From assembly GCF_035594125.1 (NCBI RefSeq), contig NC_087176.1, positions 20,156,591-20,220,590 on the forward strand: a stretch of DNA of 64,000 nucleotides, in the 5' to 3' direction. The position numbers and the translations under genes are program-made. The stretch comes from Scylla paramamosain. Taxonomy: Eukaryota; Arthropoda; Malacostraca; Decapoda; Portunidae. The notes beneath the pieces were generated by a model, which saw only the letters and a list, made by a program, of their open reading frames with translations, did no database searches and was not told where the DNA came from. Of the stretch, positions 9,330 through 64,000 are shown piece after piece; the first letter of the stretch is position 1; each line of letters opens with the position of its first letter.

Positions 9330-10060
9330 TTGCATTGCTCAAACTAAAGTTTTTATTGGGCTTATTAGAAATTAGGTCATTTATTGTTTAATTGTGTTAT
9401 TTTACTGAGGATGTTTAATATTTTCATGTCATTCATCCATTAACAAACCTTTTTATTGGCTTTATTAGAGATTAGGTAATTTTATTTAATTGTGTTATTT
9501 GACTGAGGTTGTTTAATATTTTCATGTCCTTCATTCCTTCCTGTCAAATTCATTAACCTTGCAATGTTCAGACAACACTTGTATAGTGTGAATACTTTGG
9601 TATTTTTTGTTTTGTTTTACTGAGATTGTTTAATATTTTTATATCATCCACAAATTCACAAAACTTGCAATACTTAAACAAAACCTCTAATCTGTGGATT
9701 GGAGATCAGGCATTCTGTTCTGTCTTACTGTGTTCTGTTTTACTTATTTAATCTGTGGATTGGAGATCAGGCATTCTGTTCTGTCTTACTGTGTTCTGTT
9801 TTACTTATATAATCTGTGGATTGGAGATCAGGCATTCTGTTCTGTCTTACTGTGTTCTGTTTTACTTATATAATCTGTGGATTGGAGATCAGGCATTCTG
9901 TTCTGTCTTACTGTGTTCTGTTTTACTTATTTTCATATGTCCTGTCAAATTTGTGAGACTCACAATACTCAAACAAAATTTGCAATGTATGGATTGCAGA
10001 TTAGGTATTTTATTCTGTTTCATTGTGTTCTGTTTCACTAAGATTATTTAATATTTTCAG
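9330..10060. repeat. degenerate tandem repeats incl. 61-bp satellite
   Basis: Four near-identical 61-bp units start at 9689, 9750, 9811 and 9872. Around them lie older copies of a related unit containing TTTAATATTTTCAT (about 9410, 9510 and 9630) and one divergent copy at 9985-10050. The last copy ends in TTTAATATTTTCAG, which is the 3' splice site of the exon at 10061. Confidence 0.88.
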
Positions 10061-46688
<36,628 letters not shown>

Positions 46689-47012: not shown

Positions 47013-49066
47013 AGTTAGTTAGTTAGTAGTTTATTGACAAAAGAATCCTTTTACAAAATAAACGAAGAAGAAATAATTGTACAAGTACTTTTGTCCATGA
47101 AAAGTAACAAACATGCATTTGATGTAGAGGTGATTCTTACATATTATACGTATATACTCAGTACTTCAAAAATATAGCAACACACTTCCTGTATATAGAT
47201 ATTCTCTTCCATTATGTCATTTATATCGCCAAATCTGAGCATTTGATAACTATTACGTAGATCAGCAGTCATTGTGCACTCTAACAACACATGTTTTTCG
47301 GTTTGAACATGAACACCGTCGCACAAACATACTCTCTGCTCAGTTGCCGTTCGACTCCACCTGCCTGTTTCAATTCTTAGATTGTGTGACATTAATCTCA
47401 GTCTTGTGAATGCCTCTCGCTGGTAATCGGGCACATACTTATCAGTCTTATAAATATTGTGAACTGTCAGTGTCGGGTTAAAGTCATTCACATATGTCCA
47501 GATCTTAGTGGCACTGTTCGGTGTGTTCCTCAAAATATTTCTCAATTTTTCCATGGGGTCATTATCTGATATCAGGGATATTTCTCTATTAAGGAATCTA
47601 TATCCAGGTGTGTTTTCTCTCCTGCAAAGGTCATACACAATATAAAAAGGTTGTTCCATATCTATGACCTCCAACTTAGATTTTAAGAAGTTTTTCCTCC
47701 TTCACTTTACTAATTCTATTACAGGTAAAATGCCGCTTTCAACCATACATAAATTTATGCTGGTATTTTTTCTCAAACCTAATAAACACTTTACTAAACT
47801 GTTGTATTGTCTTTCTAAGTTCTTAGTCTTGTTTGTCAGCCACGACTCACAACTGTACAGTAAGGCTGACGTCACGGCAGCATCAAAAACCTTTTTCTTC
47901 AATATAAATGGCATTAATGTATTTGCTGCACAAAAAATAGAAAATTTGTTTAGTGTCGCTTCACTCATTGTTTGGTGCATGTTAAGTACATCGTCCATTC
48001 CGGCAGTGTCTGTGAACCAGGCACCGAGGTACAAGTACCTGGCAGCATAGTTCACTACCACCTCACCCACCTTTAAGTCATGTTTGTCTCTATCATCACC
48101 GTTTACCACAAAAAATTTTGTTTTCTTCTCATTGATAAGCATTCCGTATTCACTACAATAATGTAACACGATGTTCATTTTCTTTTCACACATTTCTCTA
48201 CTTGTTGCAACGATCACTGCGTCATCCATTAACAGCATTGTATGTAAACTTCCTAAGAAATCATCTGCTGCTATTTCGTTTTTCAGCATCTTTACCATAT
48301 GGTCAATATACAAAGTAAAAAGCAGACAACTGGTCGGGGCCCCTTGACGAACACCAACAGATGATTCAATGATTGCAGATTTCATAATATTTCTAGTACA
48401 GGTATACATAGCTTTAATGGCTCTAATCATTACCTTACCACATCCACGCTCTTTTAAAGCATCTATAAGTTTTCCTCTGGGGACCCGATCGTATGCCTTA
48501 CTAAAATCTATAAACAGGACATACAGTTTTCTCTTCTTGTACATAACATAGTCACAGAGTAACCTCAAAGAAGTAATCTGTTCAACACAGCCTCTCTGTT
48601 TTTGTGCTCCCGCTTGACACTTGTCGATGTTCCACCATAATTTCAATCTATTCAATATCATAGTGTCATAAACTTTAGCTAGAGTATCCATTATAGTGAT
48701 TCCTCTATAATTACCACAAATCATACGATTACCTGACTTAAATAATACAATTAGCTTGTTGTAACACCATAACAGGGGGTAACATATTTGAGTGAACACT
48801 ACATTAAACACATTCAAGATAAATAACTTCCATGTTACATCAAACACCTTAATCATGGCCGGGCATAATCCTATATAACTTTTGTTCTTCGTAACATTCA
48901 GTGCATCGTCAAGTTCAGTCATAGAAAAAGGATCGTCTAAAATTGGTATATATGGCATATTTTCCAAATCATCAACATCTAACACACTATCGGCAATCGG
49001 TTGCTCACTAGATGGATTCAATAACTTTTCAAAATGTTCTTGAAAATTAAGTTCTGAAGCCTTTTC

Positions 49067-49068
<2 letters not shown>
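47013..49068 (-). mobile_element. 5'-truncated non-LTR retrotransposon, second family
   Basis: Minus-strand element with RT and C-terminal domains, an AATAAA signal near 47030, and a 3' end made of TAAC tetramers (47013-47026). The 5' end is cut at a CA microsatellite, removing the endonuclease. Confidence 0.85.
47144..49065 (-). pseudogene. reverse transcriptase with one in-frame stop
   Basis: The frame runs from about 49065 to 47144, broken only by TGA at 47702-47704. RT motifs: YRGITIMDTLAKVYD, CVEQITSLR, FIDFSKAYDRVPR and GVRQGAPTSCLLF. The catalytic block reads LLMDDAVIVA, with Met where YADD or FADD is usual. The C-terminal part has a CX1CX8HX4C zinc-type motif (CLCDGVHVQTEKHVLLEC), found in several non-LTR lineages. 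Without the stop it would be about 640 residues. The endonuclease is missing through 5' truncation, so this copy is dead on arrival. Confidence 0.88.

Positions 49069-49108
<40 letters not shown>
49069..49108. repeat. (CA)n microsatellite
   Basis: Abuts the truncated 5' end of the retrotransposon. Confidence 0.94.
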
Positions 49109-49112
<4 letters not shown>

Positions 49113-49325
49113 CATGTAATCAGTCATTCTTTTATAGTCTTGTATTTTCTTTTCCAGTAGAATGGTAAATAATTTTTTTTCTTTTTTAAAGTGTTTGCAA
49201 AGAGCAGCTCACGGTATTTTATATTTTTTTCCCCACGTTGCCATTCACTTGCATTCACATCTCACGTCCCAGTCACCTTTTTTCCTTTTTCAAAACGTCT
49301 TAAGCATTAACTTAGGCCATTCCTT

Positions 49326-50280
49326 CTGCTAAATCTATTAACAGGGTTCTGTCCTGTCACCCACTCTCTTTTTATTATCCATCAATGACTTTCTAAACCA
49401 GGCTTCTTGTCCTGTCCACTCCTATGCTGATGATACCACCCTGCACTTTTCCACATCTTTTCATAGACGTCCAACACTTCAGGAAGTAAACATTTCATTC
49501 AGGGAAGCCACAGAATGCCTGACTTCTGAGCTTTCTAAAATTTCTGATTGGGGCAGAGCAAATTTGATATTATTCAATGCCTCAAAAACTCAAATCCTCT
49601 ATCTATCAACTCAACACAACCTTCCAGACAACTATCCCTTCTTCAGTGACACTCAACTGTCCCCCTCTTTTACACTGAACATCCTCAGTCTGTCCTTTAC
49701 GTATAATCTGAACTGGAAACTTCACATCTCATCTCTAGCTAAAACAGCTTCTATGAAGTTACGTGTTCTGAAATGTCTCCGCCAGTTTTTCTCACCCCCC
49801 CAGCTGCTACCTCTGTACAAGGGCCTTATCCGTCCATGTATGGAGTATACTTCACATGTCTGGGGGGGGGGGGGTCCCACTCATACTGCTCTTTTAGACA
49901 GGGTGGAATCAAAAGCTTTTTGTCTCATCAACTTCTCTCCTCTAACTGACTGTCTTCAGCCTCTCTCTCATCAGTGCAATGTTGCATCTCTAGCTGTCTT
50001 CTACCACTATTTTCATACTAACTGCTCTTCTGATCTTGCTAACTGCATGCCTTCCCTCCTCCTGTGGCCTCGCTGCACAAGACTTTCTTCTTTCTCTCAA
50101 TCCTGTTCTGTCCACCTTTCTAATGCAAATGTTAACCAGTATTCTCAATCATTCATCCCTTTCTCTGGTAAACTGGAACTCCCTACCTGCTTCTGTATTT
50201 CCATTTTCCTATGACTTGAACTCCTTCAATAGAGGGGTTTCAAGACACTTATCCTTCAATTTTTGACTACTGCTTCGGAC

Positions 50281-50842: not shown

Positions 50843-50891
50843 TCAGAATATGGGCCATGGTTTTACACATGCATCATTATCCACTGCATAC

Positions 50892-50924
<33 letters not shown>

Positions 50925-51083
50925 CAGCTAAATGCTGCACCACCCATCAAGAGGATGAAGATTGCAGCCACATCAGAGAGGCTGGCTGTGAATTTAGTCT
51001 TCCTGCCACACATTGAAGTTCCTGCTGATAGCCAATTGGACCTCAGCTTGTTCATCAGGCTTGACTCCTGCCTCTTCTGAAGG
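50843..51083 (-). CDS. receptor exon 6 (end of S2, M4, stop)
   Basis: Acceptor CTTCCTACAG. The first C completes the AGC codon with exon 5. Contains LQKRQESSLMNKLRSNW, then M4, whose second half is a (CTG)10 run read as ten Leu, then EYAVDNDACVKPWPIF and TGA at 50843-50845. Confidence 0.85.
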
Positions 51084-54000
51084 CTGTAGGAAGAATAAGT
51101 AAGGTGAGTGTATGAGGGTTTGTAGGGAGAGAAGGTCTGGTACAGAAGATTGAAAAGGAATTGTGTCACTGAAGTATATCATTATGCTTTTATGTTGTGT
51201 AATAATATAGCAGTAAAATGCAGGCTGTATGGAAATAAAGGCACATCAGGATTTTATAAGGAGATTAAATTTTATAGGGAAGATTAAAAAGGAATATTGT
51301 GTCATTGTATCTGTCTCTTGCACCTTCCTTTCTGACTCCCATCCTTTGCAGTTCCATCCCTCCATCCACTTTCTGTCTTCTCAATCTTAATTCACACACA
51401 TACACACACGTGCACACACACCTGCAGTCAAATAACTTCCTAAAGGTGAATTTTTTTTGCAGCCCAATAGCAATGCCTCCTGTGATGTACTGGACTGGCA
51501 GTTCCTTGATTCTGGAGGAGTCTGCAATAGGAAGACCACAAATGTAGTAGTTCGTTGTGACATCCATACCTATGAACATGTATTTACCTGCCAAGTGAGT
51601 TTTTTATTTGTTTGACTTATTTATTTTCTCTTTTTTTTTTTTTTAATGTAACAGGAGGACTGGCCAAGGACAACAAAAAGAGCAAAAGAAAAGAAAACAA
51701 GACCCACTGAGCTGCCCGTCCCAAAAGAAAGTTAAAAAAGATCATCCAAAATTGGAAGATGTGTCCTGAAACCTCCCTCTTGAAAGAATTTGCATCATAG
51801 GAAGGAGGAGGTACAGAAGCATGTAGGGAGTGTGGGATTAGCTAACAGTGAGATACTGGTGGTGGTTATGCTAAATTGAGGAATGTTTGTGGTTTTATCT
51901 AAATGAAGAATGAATCTGGCTAATTTATTTTACCTGGTGGAAGAATTAGTTGTTTTCATTTATCAGAGGCAAGATATGAAGCAAATGTTTATATGACAAT
52001 TTCAAGTTTGCATCTTTCTCACTATGAGGAGAACTAATTGATGCTTTTTAATGACCTGTAAAGGAATTTTGTTCAACATTGCTTCATCTTAAGGGATTTA
52101 AGGATTAACAAAACCAGACCAAAAAATTCCCAAAGCATTCCAAAACAAGAGAAATAATGAAAAACACTGAAAAACACACTCAAATCATCAACAGATGTAT
52201 CCAAAGCATCAAAAAGACACAAAGAGAGATGAATATTTCATGAGAAACAATTAGAATATAAAAAAATACTAAAATCTTGAAAAATACACCAAAACATCAA
52301 AAAGACAAAAAAAGGGAGATGAAGAGACCATGACATAGTGAAGATTTTCCTGACACCAACGTGGGAGTTGCTTCTCCAGTCCCTCACTGTTGGAGCTGTG
52401 AAGGACTTACCATTCAAGACCTTCTCCAGTCCCTCACTGTTGGAGCTGTGAAGGACTTACCATTCAAGACCTTCTCCAGTCCCTCACTGTGGGAGCTGTG
52501 AAGGACTTACCATTCAAGACCTTCTCCAGTCCCTCACTGTGGGAGCTGTGAAGGACTTACCATTCAAGACCTTCTCCAGTCCCTCACTGTGGGAGCTGTG
52601 AAGGACTTACCATTCAAGACCTTCTCCAGTCCCTCAGTGTAGGAGTTCACTAAGTTATCTGGGGACCTCAGCACCACTTTCTGCCATGCCTCTCTCAGCA
52701 CACGGCACTCACCTGTCTGGGAGCCCACACAGGTTTGCTGCTCCCAGGGAAGAAGAGAAGGCACGTTATAATCTAGCCAGACTGATGTGGTGATATGAGA
52801 TTGTTCACATCCTAGGTGGTTATTGGAGGCAATCTTGATAAAGGACTAATCAAAAGGGCCTGGAGAAAGCCAGTTGAAGGAAGATCAAGGTAAAGAGTGA
52901 GTGAGATGGAAGGATGGAATTGTGCTAGAGCTGCTAAGGATGGGAGTCACAGAAGAAGATGCAAGGGACAGACACAACCAAAGAAGACTTGTGCATGGTG
53001 CCAGCCCCTCACTCCAGAGAAGCAGCAAAAACAGAAAAAGAGGACGGTAGTCACATCAGTATTTTACACAGTTTAGCCTAACAGTCAGTTAGTTTTTGGT
53101 AGACTCTGGGACACTCTGCCTACTTCTATATTTCCTCCTTCTTATGACTAGAACTCTTTCAAGAGGAAAGTTTCAAGGCACTTACCCTCCAATTTTGGAT
53201 GATCCTTTTGGTCTTAAGGGAATGGCACCTAAGTGGGTCTTTTTTTTTTTCCCTCCCAAAGCCAATGCCCCTCAAGTAAGAAAAAAAAAGAAAAAAAAAT
53301 TAACTCACAAATCCAGGGGTGGATTTAAGGTGGTGTCATACTAGCACTTTTTCCGTCAGTTTTTCATCGTTCCACATGAACTTATCGCATGAATTTGTCA
53401 GACGATCAGGATTGTTTCCTCCTGCAAATTTCCGCCTTTGTTTATATTTCCAAGACCAAGACCAAGACTTTCTGTGTGGCTTCAACCTGTCTCACAGAAC
53501 GTTATTACCACCTCTACGCTTCGTCATGGAAGGAAAACCACATCCAAGTTGGACACGCCGTTCAGAGGAGATCCTTGTGGAAAGCATAAGGAGCCATAAG
53601 TGCCTCTGGGACCACAAGGATGAATCTTGTATGAAGAAAGGCCTGAAAAGAGCGGCTCACAACACTGTCACCTGTGCCCTCCAATACTGTGTCTCACAGT
53701 AAACAGTATTAGTTTCAGAGTAGCGTATCTTTGCTGCAGTGTGGACTCCATGTTTGTTTGCACTCCTTGGGCTGTGCCAATGGAAAGTTTCAGATGAAAC
53801 ACCATTTGTGTGCGACAGGCCGCAGCCAAGATATCCACGATTTTCAGAAAAACGATGGAAAAAGTTGACGGAAAAAGTGTTGGTGTGACACACCACCTTG
53901 AGGTCAGTGGAGGCCCATGGCCAGCCTGAGATATTTATATTAATGTTTTTATGTATCTATATTCCATTCAATTTTTTAATATATATAATATAATCTAGAG

Positions 54001-54278: not shown

Positions 54279-56580
54279 GTGTGGATGGTATATCAGCACA
54301 GGGAGCAAAAAACCAAGGAGCCACTGAGGCTGTCACTTTGAAGAGGTCATTGTTGTTGCATCCAGCATCCCAGCCTGACTGCCTAGACAGCTCCTGCAGG
54401 TTGCTGAAGGGCAGAGTCACAGACTGCTCCACTGCCAGGTGTGAGACCAGTGTGGCAGAGTATGATGTGTACACAATGAGGGACACACCACAGCCAACCC
54501 TGTAGGTGACCCATGCTGCACTGCTGATTGGGTAGGTGTTGGAGCCTGCAGAAGGAGGAGGAGGAGGAGGGGGGGAAGATGCTATAAAAAAAGCAATTTT
54601 AAAACCTGGAAAATGATGCAAAAGCAATTTAAATCTTTGAAAGGGACAAAAGTAGATAATTTTAAATTCAAGTGTTGAAAAGACCATTTTAAAATGTTTC
54701 AGAGATAAAAATGCAATTTAAAAATTTTCTCACCATTTCTGAAAGATTTAAACATTATATCTTACTAAGAAAACTGTTGATACCTTCATCATGAGAACTA
54801 CTGATAACAAAATTAAATACATTACTTACGATATCCATAACAGTTGTATCAACACCACTTGCTTGCATTGCTCATGCCAGAACCAATTGAAGTTAATATC
54901 AACACAATTATGGAAATACATCAGATGTCATGTGAAGTTTACCAATTTTAAATCTATCCTTTAATGATTGTCTTCCTGTATTCCCATCTTATCAAACATT
55001 AAACACCACTACCCTTGTATTCATCTAACAGTCCCACCCATATACACATGTACACCCATCAAAAAAATGTTGTCACCTTTATGGTGTGTTACTGTATGAC
55101 ACATCACACAATGATTTCTGGTATAACTCATGCAGTATGGTGCAAAGTTGGTAACCCTGCTGTGCCAAGTTGCTAGTTACTGGGGAATTTGTGACTGGTA
55201 TAATATATGATCCTGGTATGATGTGGAAAATGCACTCCATGAACCATTATTTGCTCTACAGAATGAACTACACTAAAGTGATAATAGTATGGGATGTTTA
55301 CGAGGGAGAAGAATGGAGAGGGGGGGGACAGGAAGACGTACCAACCTCCACAAGTCATCACGGCTGCTGTGCCAGTGTTTGTTGCGGTCAATTTCAGAAC
55401 CTAGAGTAACAAAAAATATTTTGACAGGTGTACTAGCTAACTAACCGGACACTAAACATTGCTATCCTGCAGCTAACCAGTCCTTGCATTCAACTAACAG
55501 TCTCACCCTTTCAGGTCCTCACCTTGCTGTAGGAGACCTGATAACATGTACCAGCCATTTTACCAAACACTAAACACTACCACCATTGAACTGACCAGTC
55601 CCACACCCCAACAGGTCCTCACTTTGCTGTAGGAGAGCTGACAACACGTACCAGCCAGCAACTCCCATGCTGACGGGCTTCTCCCCCATGGGTATGTAGC
55701 ACCTCTGGAGTTGGTCAGCAAAGAAGAGGATGCTAGCCAAACCTATCATGTTAGTCAGGATGCACCAGTACAGAGCTGTGTCCATTGGGGTTGTGTAGGC
55801 TAGTAGCATCTTGTCAAGGTCCTCATAGGTGGCCACAAACAGTTTATGGCTATAAGAGGAGGACTTGCCTTGTGAACATCACATTGGGGTGAGTGTTTAA
55901 TCTGATTTTGTGTTAATTTGTTTTGTGGGGAGTGAGTGTTAATGTGATTTTTTGTTAAGTGAATGCTGTGCCTGGGCTCCTGAGGTGTAGTGTGGTGTGG
56001 TGGGCCATAAGACTGTCCCTTTCCACTAGGGCCTGACAGGTATTAAGAGTGTGAAGGATGTGTGTGTGGTGCCTTGTTTGGGCCATCTTGTGTGTGATTG
56101 CCAGCCTGATATATACAGAAAAATAAGTTATTAGTGGAGCTGAGAGTGTGAATGTGTGGTGGTTTGTCTGGGGTGTCCTGTGGGGGATTGTTTGGCCTGG
56201 TATGTAAATACATTATTATTTGGGTTAACTGTGAATGTTGTATGTGTGAATATATGGTGCATTGTCTGGGCCACCCTGTATGGGGTTGCCAATGTGGTAT
56301 ATAGATATATCAATCAAATTATTTGACATTTCATATTGTAAACATTTTGCTGATCCAAGTTAATCTGTTAAGGGAGTGCTTTGTTCACTATCCTTAAATC
56401 ATTATTTGATCATCACTTGTGTATATATATAGGCTGGGTGTAGGTAACAACTTTCAGCCTCTCTTCAGTGATGGACAATTCAGAGACAGTGAGGTCAGCT
56501 TCCCCTGACTGCAAAGCTCCTACCATGCCCGTCCACTCATTGTTTGAGCTGTCCTTCAGTTTCCCTCTAGTACCTTCAGA
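50843..56580 (-). CDS. ionotropic receptor (iGluR/IR family), six exons
   Basis: Exons on the minus strand: 56417-56580, 55623-55849, 54337-54545, 52611-52716, 51422-51587 and 50843-51083. All have AG/GT borders, phases match at every junction, and the sum is exactly 371 codons including the stop. Domains in order: S1 ligand-binding half (EWTGMVGALQSGEADLTVSE, SITEERLKVVTYTQP), M1 (YWCILTNMIGLASILFFA), pore loop (WYVLSALLQQ), M3 with SYSATLVSHLAV (the SYTANLAAF-equivalent), S2 (NDLFK, AWQKVV, EGLEKVLNGKYMFIGMD, GGIAIGLQKKFTFRKLFD, LMNKLRSNWLSAG) and M4 (DVAAIFILLMGGAAFS plus ten Leu). It would be a ligand-gated cation channel, either chemosensory IR or a divergent glutamate receptor. The S1 arginine of SITEER aligns with the glutamate-binding Arg, but the S2 Thr and Glu positions look replaced. 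The first part of S1 and any N-terminal domain were not found upstream, so the 5' end is missing or distant. Confidence 0.88.
50895..50924. repeat. (CAG)10 microsatellite inside the M4 codons
   Basis: Ten CAG triplets on the plus strand, read as CTG (Leu) by the receptor. Confidence 0.95.
51422..51587 (-). CDS. receptor exon 5 (S2 domain)
   Basis: Acceptor CACTTGGCAG, donor GTGTGT. Encodes KYMFIGMDVTTNYYICG, LPIADSSRIKELPVQY and GGIAIGLQKKFTFRKLFD. Confidence 0.85.
51588..52370. other. receptor intron 4, unique part
   Basis: AT-rich; the 52090-52330 part is very A-rich with repeated AAAACAC/CATCAAAAAGACA words. No other feature seen. Confidence 0.5.
52371..52660 (-). repeat. 50-bp tandem repeat copying the exon-4 donor
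   Basis: The unit starts at 52371, 52421, 52471, 52521, 52571 and 52621. On the minus strand each full unit carries GTCTTGAATG followed by GTAAGTCC, the end of exon 4 plus its 5' splice site. GTAAGT begins at 52610 (the true junction), 52560, 52510, 52460 and 52410. Confidence 0.95.
52611..52716 (-). CDS. receptor exon 4 (S2 domain)
   Basis: Acceptor GGCTCCCAG, donor GTAAGT. Encodes TGECRVLREAWQKVVLRS, PDNLVNSYTEGLEKVLN and ends in phase 1, as exon 5 requires. An alternative acceptor 4 bases downstream (ACAG) is possible but would break the phase. Confidence 0.8.
53083..53299 (+). mobile_element. 3' fragment of poly(A) non-LTR family
   Basis: Diverged counterpart of the last codons and 3' UTR (GACTCTGGGACACTCTGCCT, TCAAGAGGAAAGTTTCAAGG), ending in poly(A). 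Confidence 0.8.
53327..53899 (+). mobile_element. TIR element carrying a MADF-like frame
   Basis: The left end AAGGTGGTGTCATACTAGCA continues with CTTTTTCCGTCA. The right end is the inverse, with the same words in the same order over about 43 bases, allowing a few mismatches and gaps. The 573-bp element lies in a receptor intron. The association of such ends with a MADF protein suggests PIF/Harbinger, but no transposase is present and the target duplication is unclear. Confidence 0.72.
53525..53702 (+). CDS. short MADF-like protein
   Basis: 58 residues: MEGKPHPSWTRRSEEILVES, then IRSHKCLWDHKDESCMKKGL and KRAAHNTVTCALQYCVSQ. The pattern ILVESIRSHKCLWD..D resembles the first two helices of MADF (Myb/SANT-like) DNA-binding domains, in which an acidic/Leu helix is followed by P.LWD. 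It lacks the rest of the domain (about 85 residues), so it is truncated. The frame is also open upstream (53319) without domain signal. Probably the remains of the accessory DNA-binding protein of the transposon. Confidence 0.5.
53903..54140. other. receptor intron, no feature
   Basis: AT-rich unique sequence. Confidence 0.5.
54141..54275. repeat. (GCCT)n, poly(C) and (CT)n compound repeat
   Basis: Seven GCCT units, a C-run with one A, then about 42 CT units. The receptor frame is open into this repeat but the likely donor lies before it. Confidence 0.95.
54337..54545 (-). CDS. receptor exon 3 (M3 and start of S2)
   Basis: Acceptor CTTCTGCAG. The leading GC completes a Ser codon with exon 2. 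Encodes SNTYPISSAAWVTYRVGCGV, SLIVYTSYSATLVSHLAVEQ and the NNNDLFK end. The donor GTGACA is weak; the frame stays open downstream, so the exon end is the least certain junction. Confidence 0.8.
54546..55440. other. receptor intron 2, unique part
   Basis: AT-rich with a GGA-rich patch at 54548-54575. No other exon recognised. Confidence 0.5.
55441..55660 (-). repeat. two-copy tandem duplication spanning exon-2 end
   Basis: Two units of about 100 bp. The unit at 55512-55557 duplicates 55612-55657, that is the last bases of exon 2 and its donor. The words CACTAAACA and CAGTCC recur in the upstream halves. Confidence 0.85.
55623..55849 (-). CDS. receptor exon 2 (M1 and pore loop)
   Basis: Acceptor CTCCTCTTATAG, donor AAA/GTGAGG. 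Encodes HKLFVATYEDLDKMLLAYTT, PMDTALYWCILTNMIGLASI, LFFADQ and GVAGWYVLSALLQQ. Starts with one base that completes the codon from exon 1 and ends in phase 1. Confidence 0.86.
55985..56310. repeat. degenerate repeat units in receptor intron 1
   Basis: Three units of about 95 bp sharing TGGTG..TTGTCTGGG..., TGTG.GGGATTG and CCTGGTAT-type words. The first unit is also related to 46320-46470. Confidence 0.65.
56417..56580 (-). CDS. receptor exon 1 found (S1 domain)
   Basis: Acceptor ACTTGTACAG, donor AA/GTGATG. Encodes SEGTRGKLKDSSNNEWTGMV, GALQSGEADLTVSELSIT and EERLKVVTYTQPIYIH. Starts in phase 0. The preceding exon carrying the start of S1 was not located. Confidence 0.85.
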
Positions 56581-56679: not shown

Positions 56680-57093
56680 ATCTGCATGTTTATCTCCTCC
56701 TTCATGCATCACCAAATACCACCAACTGTTCTATGTATCCTTGCATCTAAGATTTGTCCTAATTTTGCAGGAAGCCCACCCCAGCAGCCCAGCCTCCCCT
56801 GACAGCTATCATCATCTGCTGCCTTGCCTGGGAGGACCATAGACACAGCTTGTCTCTGATGTCTTCCCCACAATGCCTTGTCTTTGTTGGCTTCAGTGCA
56901 ATTTGTTTGTCTTCAGTTTAAATAGTATTGTATATACTATCTTGTCTTCACCATCTTGAAATGTGAAGGATGTTCTTGACAAACAAACAAGGTAGTATTG
57001 TATAATTATTACTTTAAATATTGTCTTAAATTATCTTGAAATTTGTAAAAAAAAAAATGTGTAAAAAGAAAGCAAATACAGATGATTATCTCT
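56675..57093. other. no gene recognised
   Basis: AT-rich sequence upstream of the first receptor exon found. It was searched for the missing S1 start without success. Confidence 0.5.
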
Positions 57094-57320
57094 GTAGTGA
57101 AGGAGGAAGGACTCAATATCCCTGTAGTGAAGGAGGAAGGACTCAATTTTTTTTAAGTTTAAGGTGTGATTTGCACATAGAGGCTCCTGGATTTCCCTGT
57201 AGAGTGACCCTCCCTGAATGCAGGGAGGGACGGTGCCTCTATGTACAAATCGCACCTTAAACTTAGTAGTGAAGCCTTAAACTTAGTATTTTGTAGTGAA
57301 GGAGGGAGGAAGGACTCCTT
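57094..57320. repeat. hairpin-forming inverted repeat in a short direct repeat
   Basis: The arm 57155-57184 (AAGTTTAAGGTGTGATTTGC...) pairs with 57234-57263 with two or three mismatches. An inner CCCTCC...GGAGGG stem lies in the loop. GTAGTGAAGGAGG repeats at 57095, 57124 and 57294 bracket the hairpin. Confidence 0.8.
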
Positions 57321-62877: not shown

Positions 62878-64000
62878 GTTAAAATGTTTGATAGAATTCT
62901 AGATACAGGAGACTTACCAGAGCAATGGCTAATAGGGGTTATTTATTGTTCCTTTGTATAAAAATAAAGGTGATGTTGATGAGCCACATAATTATAGGGC
63001 TATAACTTTACTAAGTTGTTTAAGTAAGCTTTTCACATCAATAGCTAATGACAGACTAACACACTATTCAAACAGATTCAATATTGTAAAAGAAACACAA
63101 GGTGGGTTTCGGCAAGGTTACAGTACCTCGACCATATATTTTTACTGAAGTGTATCACGGACTTGTTCTTATGGAAGAGGAGAAAACTGTTCTGTCTCTT
63201 TATTGACTACAGGAAAGCTTCTGACACAATATGGAGGGATGGGCTTTGGTACAAGACGGTGAAAGAAAATATAGGTGGTAAAGTACTTAATGTTATTAGA
63301 AATATGTACATGAATATAAAGTCATGTGTAAAATTTTACCAAAAAACATCTGACACTTTCATTTGTACTAAAGGAGTAAGACAGGGAGAAGATCTCTCTC
63401 CATTGCTGTTTGCTCTATAAGTTAATGATATACAAGATTCCCTGGTAGAAAACAACTGTAATTATCTGTTATCTGATGATAATTTTCTTGATTTACATTT
63501 AAATCTATTGGTTATGATGTATGCTGACGACACAGTTATTTTAGCTAATAGTGAAGATGAAATTAAAAATATTCTCAAAGCAATGGAATTATATTGTGAG
63601 CAATGGAAGTTAGATGTGAATAACAGCAAAACAAAGGTTGTAGTGTTTAGTAGAGGGAGGGTGAATTATGGCACCTATGACTTTGTCTTTAGAGAAGAGA
63701 ATATCCAAACAATAAGTGAATATCAGTACCTAGGAGTTTTACTTAATTACAATAGAAGATTTAGAATTGCCCAATTAGAACAAAAAAGTGCTTCTAGAGC
63801 GACGTATTCACTGACTGGGAAATGCCGTAAACACGACCCACCGCTTGATACGACTGTGATGCCAATTATGACACACGGTTGTGGAATATGCGGTTGTACT
63901 GTTGATAGAGAGTTGAAACAATTGCTGATGAAATTTTTTAAACACGTATTATATGTCCATAAGAATACAAGTAGAGACATTGTGTACGGTAAGTTAGGAG

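Follow-up and report, generated by a model that had tools for sequence, protein, structure and literature searches.

A 50-bp tandem repeat iterates an exon end with its splice donor in an ionotropic-receptor gene of the crab Scylla paramamosain

The window analyzed here, a single stretch of 64,000 nucleotides from Scylla paramamosain, carries on its minus strand a gene of the ionotropic (glutamate) receptor type, in which both ligand-binding and channel domains are present (Table 1). Pfam, run on a spliced model with an earlier exon-4 start at 52716, detected PF10613 (Lig_chan-Glu_bd; 40.3 bits, cut-off 30) and PF00060 (Lig_chan; 40.4 bits, cut-off 30.8), and the same model was used as query for the first protein homology search, for which 15 proteins were listed of 807 candidates. 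Nine of these 15 homologs, including the best two, come from S. paramamosain; the best one, P0001, is annotated as 'glutamate receptor ionotropic, kainate 5-like' and shows 84% along 98% of the query. At the level of single exons, several shorter proteins of S. paramamosain come close to identity with the window; P0007 matches at 100% both along 91 residues around exon 2 and along 70 residues of exon 3. Further protein searches were made with residues 255-300 of P0006 (three proteins listed of 15) and with residues 75-150 of P0009 (four of four).

Comparison with these homologs led us to replace the exon-4 start near 52716 by position 52737 (CAG/CAAACC, reading QTCVGSQTGECRVL), which is the most likely one, as in P0001 and P0009. 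Exon 3 closes after DLFK (about 54337) in the sibling models P0006, P0007 and P0009. When exon 4, exon 5 and the last coding exon are joined canonically, the reading frame is open to KPWPIF-stop and follows P0001. The last membrane helix contains ten leucines encoded by a CTG/CAG run (50894-50928) in the last coding exon; the corresponding number is five in P0001 and nine in the siblings P0016 and P0017. We also considered that exon 5 might start GTAAGT, so that the donor would be repeated directly at either end of intron 4, but exon 5 starts GTAAAT.

Table 1. Features of the receptor gene and of the repeat array at the end of its exon 4 (window positions; a slash marks a splice junction).
Feature	Position	Strand	Remarks
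Exon 1 as seen in the window (GKLKDSSNNEWTGMVGALQ...TQPIYI)	56417..56580	-	both ends tentative; 5' side enters GA repeat
Exon 2 (HKLFVATYEDL...LSALLQQ)	55623..55849	-	
Exon 3 (SNTYPISSAAW...NNNDLFKVTAS)	54325..54545	-	3' end uncertain
Exon 4, 127 nt, ends AAT G/ (phase 1)	52611..52737	-	tblastn with P0001 residues 311-354, 93%; translation
Strong donor-like site CAG/GTGAGT inside exon 4 (GT 52712)	52708..52716	-	U1 duplex -11.9
50-bp tandem array	52371..52636	-	five full units and a partial unit
Full units 1-5	52636-52587 (exon/intron copy), 52586-52537, 52536-52487, 52486-52437, 52436-52387	-	
Donor 1, canonical exon-4 donor (GT 52610)	52605..52611	-	joining to exon 5 continues homologous protein VLNG-KY
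Four identical intronic donors (GT 52560, 52510, 52460, 52410)	52405..52561	-	
Partial unit, array end	52386-52371	-	
Proposed duplication seed CAACTCCCAC, directly after array	52361..52370	-	
Exon 5 (GKYMFIGMDVTTNYY...), phase 1 start	51422..51587	-	
Possible alternative acceptor inside exon 5, CTATTGCAG/ACTCC	51521	-	in frame, removes 66 nt
Last coding exon (SLQKRQESS...KPWPIF-stop)	50843..51083	-	CTG run

Other observations were made in and around the gene. Within exon 5, a run of eight A with a nearby compensating change (51440-51458, minus strand) gives KKFTF in the window and KNSPF in P0001, and P0009 is out of frame from about this run. A 30-bp repeat at 57087-57147 has two copies in the window (IESFLLHYRD), whereas the same peptide occurs five times in the sibling P0008, which suggests that the length of this minisatellite differs from one gene copy to another. 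Three open reading frames with a reverse-transcriptase match (PF00078) flank the receptor gene on both sides, at 47705-49123 (minus strand), 49342-50211 and 63052-63417 (both plus strand), and probably belong to transposons. An open reading frame with a WD40 repeat (44050-44331, plus strand) is probably an exon of another gene, on the strand opposite to the receptor.

Exon 4 ends, together with its donor, inside a tandem array. A preliminary description of the locus, made from its letters, had reported a 50-bp repeat with five donors between 52610 and 52410, and this is confirmed. First, TRF found a period of 50, with 5.5 copies and 98% matches, over 52371-52645. Second, the identical donor ATG/GTAAGT occurs five times on the minus strand, with its GT at 52610, 52560, 52510, 52460 and 52410. 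Third, the 32-mer TGAGGGACTGGAGAAGGTCTTGAATGGTAAGT, namely, 26 exon-type nucleotides plus GTAAGT, recurs five times at 50-bp spacing with zero mismatches; no further match to it was found at up to three mismatches elsewhere in the 64,000-nt window, and five copies were reached in 0 of 100 shuffles. The word GGTAAGT by itself is not enriched (11 found window-wide on both strands vs 8.2 expected, with at least 11 in 24 of 100 shuffles), and thus the signal is the repeat and not donor-like words generally.

Among the five full units a single site varies, being C in units 1-3 (CTCCCACAG) and A in units 4-5 (CTCCAACAG). Identity between exon and array is confined to the last 26 nt of exon 4, which form the outermost copy, and the similarity at a 50-bp offset wanes about 12 nt deeper into the exon. 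The unit contains the exon's own donor, as in donor-spanning variable number tandem repeats (VNTRs) of the ABCA7 and CBS kind. Of the two readings offered in the preliminary description, the one that derives a minisatellite from a splice junction is supported. The array itself is likely present, and its exact copy number, five, is that of one assembly.

Such an array may have originated by tandem duplication between similar words of the ACTCCYAC type, the exonic AACTCCTAC and the intronic AACTCCCAC. The resulting unit would begin in exon sequence and finish in intron sequence, which is the arrangement observed; slippage or unequal exchange would then have expanded it. This model additionally needs the last unit to have lost 22 nt, a donor among them, at a later time. 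The proposed seed that directly follows the array, CAACTCCCAC, is identical to the unit's CAGCTCCCAC at nine of ten positions, and the exon carries a similar GAACTCCTAC just ahead of its repeated part. This match is suggestive only, as 23 of 7658 10-mers sampled from the window as background match some part of the unit equally well.

The setting of the array also bears on its origin. After removal of TRF rows nested in others and of multiples of 4-6-base repeats, the window has 25 arrays of period at least 10, which cover 2,706 bp or 4.2% (24 arrays and 3.8% without the present one). At this density, it is unremarkable that one of the gene's dozen splice sites should fall inside some array. 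However, only two others with a period of at least 10 have at least four copies at 95% or above, namely, 9688-9930 (61 bp x 4, 99%) and 39874-40236 (30 bp x 12, 96%). Long clean arrays are therefore rarer than the figure of 4.2% suggests, which counts against the explanation that we favor below.

Translation of the extended exon gives a uniform result. Each of the four extra donors leads to the identical tail GKSFTAPTVRDWRRS-stop, inside the first retained unit (4/4), so that exon 4 extended to any later donor, or read into a retained intron, ends ...VLNGKSFTAPTVRDWRRS-stop. Two proposals of the preliminary description fall on this point. Three-unit steps were expected to keep the frame, and 150 nt is divisible by three, yet the stop sits in the first unit retained; and the four extra donors, regarded as a potential splicing-choice device, yield one truncated product instead of distinct usable products. 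As far as extension donors are concerned, only two outcomes are allowed, native or one truncated form, and the array amounts at most to a leak between two states rather than to a choice among many.

Paths in which the units also supply acceptors were enumerated with the five donors, varying both the type of acceptor and the minimum intron length. When acceptors had to be CAG and introns had to span 24 nt or more, 24 nt being all the distance there is between a unit's donor and that unit's last CAG, we obtained 81 paths, of which only the canonical one retains the native C-terminus, the remaining 80 finishing in one of three short truncated tails. Mini-exons bounded by CAG, as had been envisaged, thus truncate the protein in 80 of the 81 paths, and the same count speaks against a new intron gained by tandem duplication, which should leave the old coding sequence intact. 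For CAG acceptors and introns of at least 40, 50 or 60 nt, one of 29 paths has the native C-terminus. When any AG is accepted, 47 of 1405 paths are open with introns of at least 24 nt (46 besides the canonical), and 11 of 101 with introns of at least 50 nt (10 besides the canonical); one example has a 45-nt insert beginning at the AG within GTAAGT.

The quality of these acceptors was estimated from the share of pyrimidines upstream. It is 0.35 for the AG within GTAAGT, 0.35 for GAAG and 0.70 for TGAG, the last of which requires a second mini-exon for frame restoration. Four of the six receptor acceptors have values of 0.60 to 0.95, the others being exon 1 with 0.25 (tentative) and exon 5 with 0.40. 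Since these two acceptors are poor as well, tract quality alone cannot exclude the AG acceptors of the units.

A calculated U1 duplex energy of -8.8 kcal/mol was obtained for each of the five array donors. The best duplex among the GT sites scored in 52736-52340 is that of the donor-like site inside exon 4, at 52712 (-11.9 vs -8.8 kcal/mol), which sits where P0001 has D (Asp) and the window has G (Gly), and which is apparently used in the sibling model P0016, judging by its junction QTCVGSQT/DSSRIK. The other donors of the gene score -2.2 (exon 1), -5.1 (exon 2), -1.5 (exon 3) and -7.4 (exon 5), with the positions of the first three being tentative.

The sibling proteins, which are database gene models, give an indirect view of how related copies are read. 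Of 16 proteins compared, four window-like ones from S. paramamosain hold exon 4, with the following results. First, P0006 continues beyond the first donor, and its C-terminus is precisely the tail predicted above (VLNGKSFTAPTVRDWRRS). As this tail needs the exon-type sequence of a second unit, the sequence behind P0006 has at least two units; and as P0006 differs from the window at two residues in the exon-2 segment, it represents another copy or allele. The protein fits both intron retention and use of a later donor. Second, P0009 leaves exon 4 where the first donor lies, and its point of entry into exon 5 fits the acceptor at 51521. Third, P0016 exits at QTCVGSQT, which fits the donor at 52712, and enters at 51521, the acceptor that fits its junction too, thereby bypassing the array. 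Fourth, P0007 loses frame before the array. Continuation from a repeat unit into exon 5 was found in none of the four (P0006, P0007, P0009 and P0016).

The explanation that we favor, with a probability of roughly 0.75, is that of a donor-straddling 50-bp minisatellite in a decapod (Scylla-type) ionotropic-receptor paralog, whose spare donors are mere passengers. The spliceosome would use the first donor of exon 4, or the stronger one within the exon at 52712, and the four remaining donors would be carried along. Whenever a spare donor were used or the intron retained, translation would meet the same TGA in the first retained unit, and the truncated receptor would lack the remainder of the ligand-binding lobe as well as the last membrane helix; alternatively, the stop-bearing mRNA might be removed by nonsense-mediated decay. 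An ordinary minisatellite is suggested by the fact that an extra copy, used in nearly every way, just shortens the protein, and its effect on the biology of the crab receptor is probably neutral.

Two observations count against the spare donors as passengers, namely, that the truncated form exists as an annotated protein, P0006, and that the array donors score better than those of exons 1, 2 and 3. By analogy with ABCA7 the outermost donor should dominate, a strong opposite effect being possible. The intron-proximal donor of a pair can prevail if both are strong and occupied by U1; truncation would then be the main outcome. The available part of a report on the tandem-donor mechanism does not state which of two occupied donors is the winner (PMC8724738).

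A reading compatible with the favored one, to which we give somewhat less than an even chance, is that the whole receptor copy is a decaying member of a multi-copy family, and the array neutral debris within it. A search of the window with residues 1-112 of P0001 yielded four matches, all weak (E 3.7 to 9.3) and none lying upstream of exon 1, beyond which the window extends a further 7.4 kb; the lacking N-terminal exons could lie past window position 64000. Exon 1 adjoins the GA repeat and has the poor acceptor tract mentioned above (0.25), so that the copy may be 5'-truncated. The near-identical S. paramamosain proteins, whose contigs differ in length, start late or end early (P0006 to P0009, P0016 and P0017), and P0009 shifts frame after LQKK; however, these siblings may stem from two assemblies, and their number is therefore not a copy count. 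Moreover, decay does not sit easily with exons 1 to 5 being open in frame (with the earlier exon-4 start), nor with exons 4 to 6 being open to a native-like C-terminus.

It is unlikely, in our judgment, that the array acts as a poison-splice rheostat, in which the number of spare donors would set the share of transcripts taking the unit-1 stop, and copy number would tune the amount of full receptor. Equal scores for all five donors and a common stop for all spare ones would suit such a role, but the copies may be alike only through youth. The annotation of P0006 as exactly the truncated form points in the same direction, as does the human CBS gene, where, in the part of the source available, lower activity accompanies a larger number of units of a 31-bp VNTR at the exon 13/intron 13 boundary (PMC5188458); against this, the accessible account of ABCA7 has the unit-retention isoform unchanged with VNTR length (PMC5954066). 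Assembly error, by which collapse or expansion would have produced the copy number or the array, is quite unlikely: young, near-identical units are hard to assemble, but P0006, from a sequence differing from the window, demands two or more units as well. It is more doubtful still that the array provides a heritable, copy-number-tunable off-switch, with receptor dose varying by copy or individual and truncated receptors maybe acting as dominant-negative partners. Finally, units serving as mini-exons that diversify the receptor are highly improbable: each unit has a good donor, its CAGs have modest pyrimidine shares (0.55 and 0.65, above the 0.40 of exon 5) and the 46 non-canonical any-AG paths are open, but CAG-bounded units bring a stop in all paths save the canonical one, and not one of the four exon-4-bearing siblings passes from a unit into exon 5.

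The locus also has a more general use, as a clean natural test of donor choice, for its five donors share 26 identical exon-type nucleotides plus the signal and differ mainly in their position in the intron. Transcripts of such a gene would reveal whether position alone picks the winning donor, in an invertebrate addition to the human ABCA7 and CBS cases. Our literature search, of partial coverage, found no donor minisatellite in a crustacean, and we do not claim its absence from print. As in intron gain by tandem duplication, splice signals have been multiplied, the potato case spanning an intron-exon boundary and fission-yeast cases with several 24-bp duplicates being cited alongside it; in contrast with those, no new coding intron is evident in the crab, where the repeats lie inside an existing intron.

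Alternative splicing at the donor of the human CBS VNTR was reportedly described by Lievers et al. in 2001. That 31-bp VNTR, c.1444_1467+7, straddles the exon 13 donor (PMC2630376, PMC5188458) and, like the crab array, iterates an exon end with its donor, the unit comprising, per its name, 24 exonic and 7 intronic nucleotides; it differs, in what could be consulted of these sources, in having 16 to 21 units of 31 bp, in residing in an enzyme gene and in having variation and activity data. CBS 844ins68, also human, is likewise a duplication of an exon-intron boundary, described in the available texts as largely neutralized by splice-site choice (PMC2630376, PMC1334203, PMC7277093). The intronic minisatellites of earthworm metallothionein, in the portion of that report available, include none at a donor (PMC12783039).

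A close likeness in coding consequence is seen with intron 18 of human ABCA7, as far as the accessible part of its description goes (PMC5954066). Its 25-bp VNTR unit begins with the GT of the exon 18 donor, transcripts keeping one unit amount to about 2% (2 +/- 1% in the tissues examined) and have a premature stop, and long arrays are associated with loss of the following exon from the transcript. In both genes donors are iterated down the intron, the unit length is not a multiple of three and use of the next donor means a premature stop. However, the ABCA7 array has 12 to about 427 units, is described as intronic and comes with known population variation and RNA data, whereas that of the crab has five units and includes 26 nt of coding sequence inside the unit. 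A donor-spanning VNTR is thus already known in man, and the crab locus is a further case, with coding sequence in its unit and few copies.
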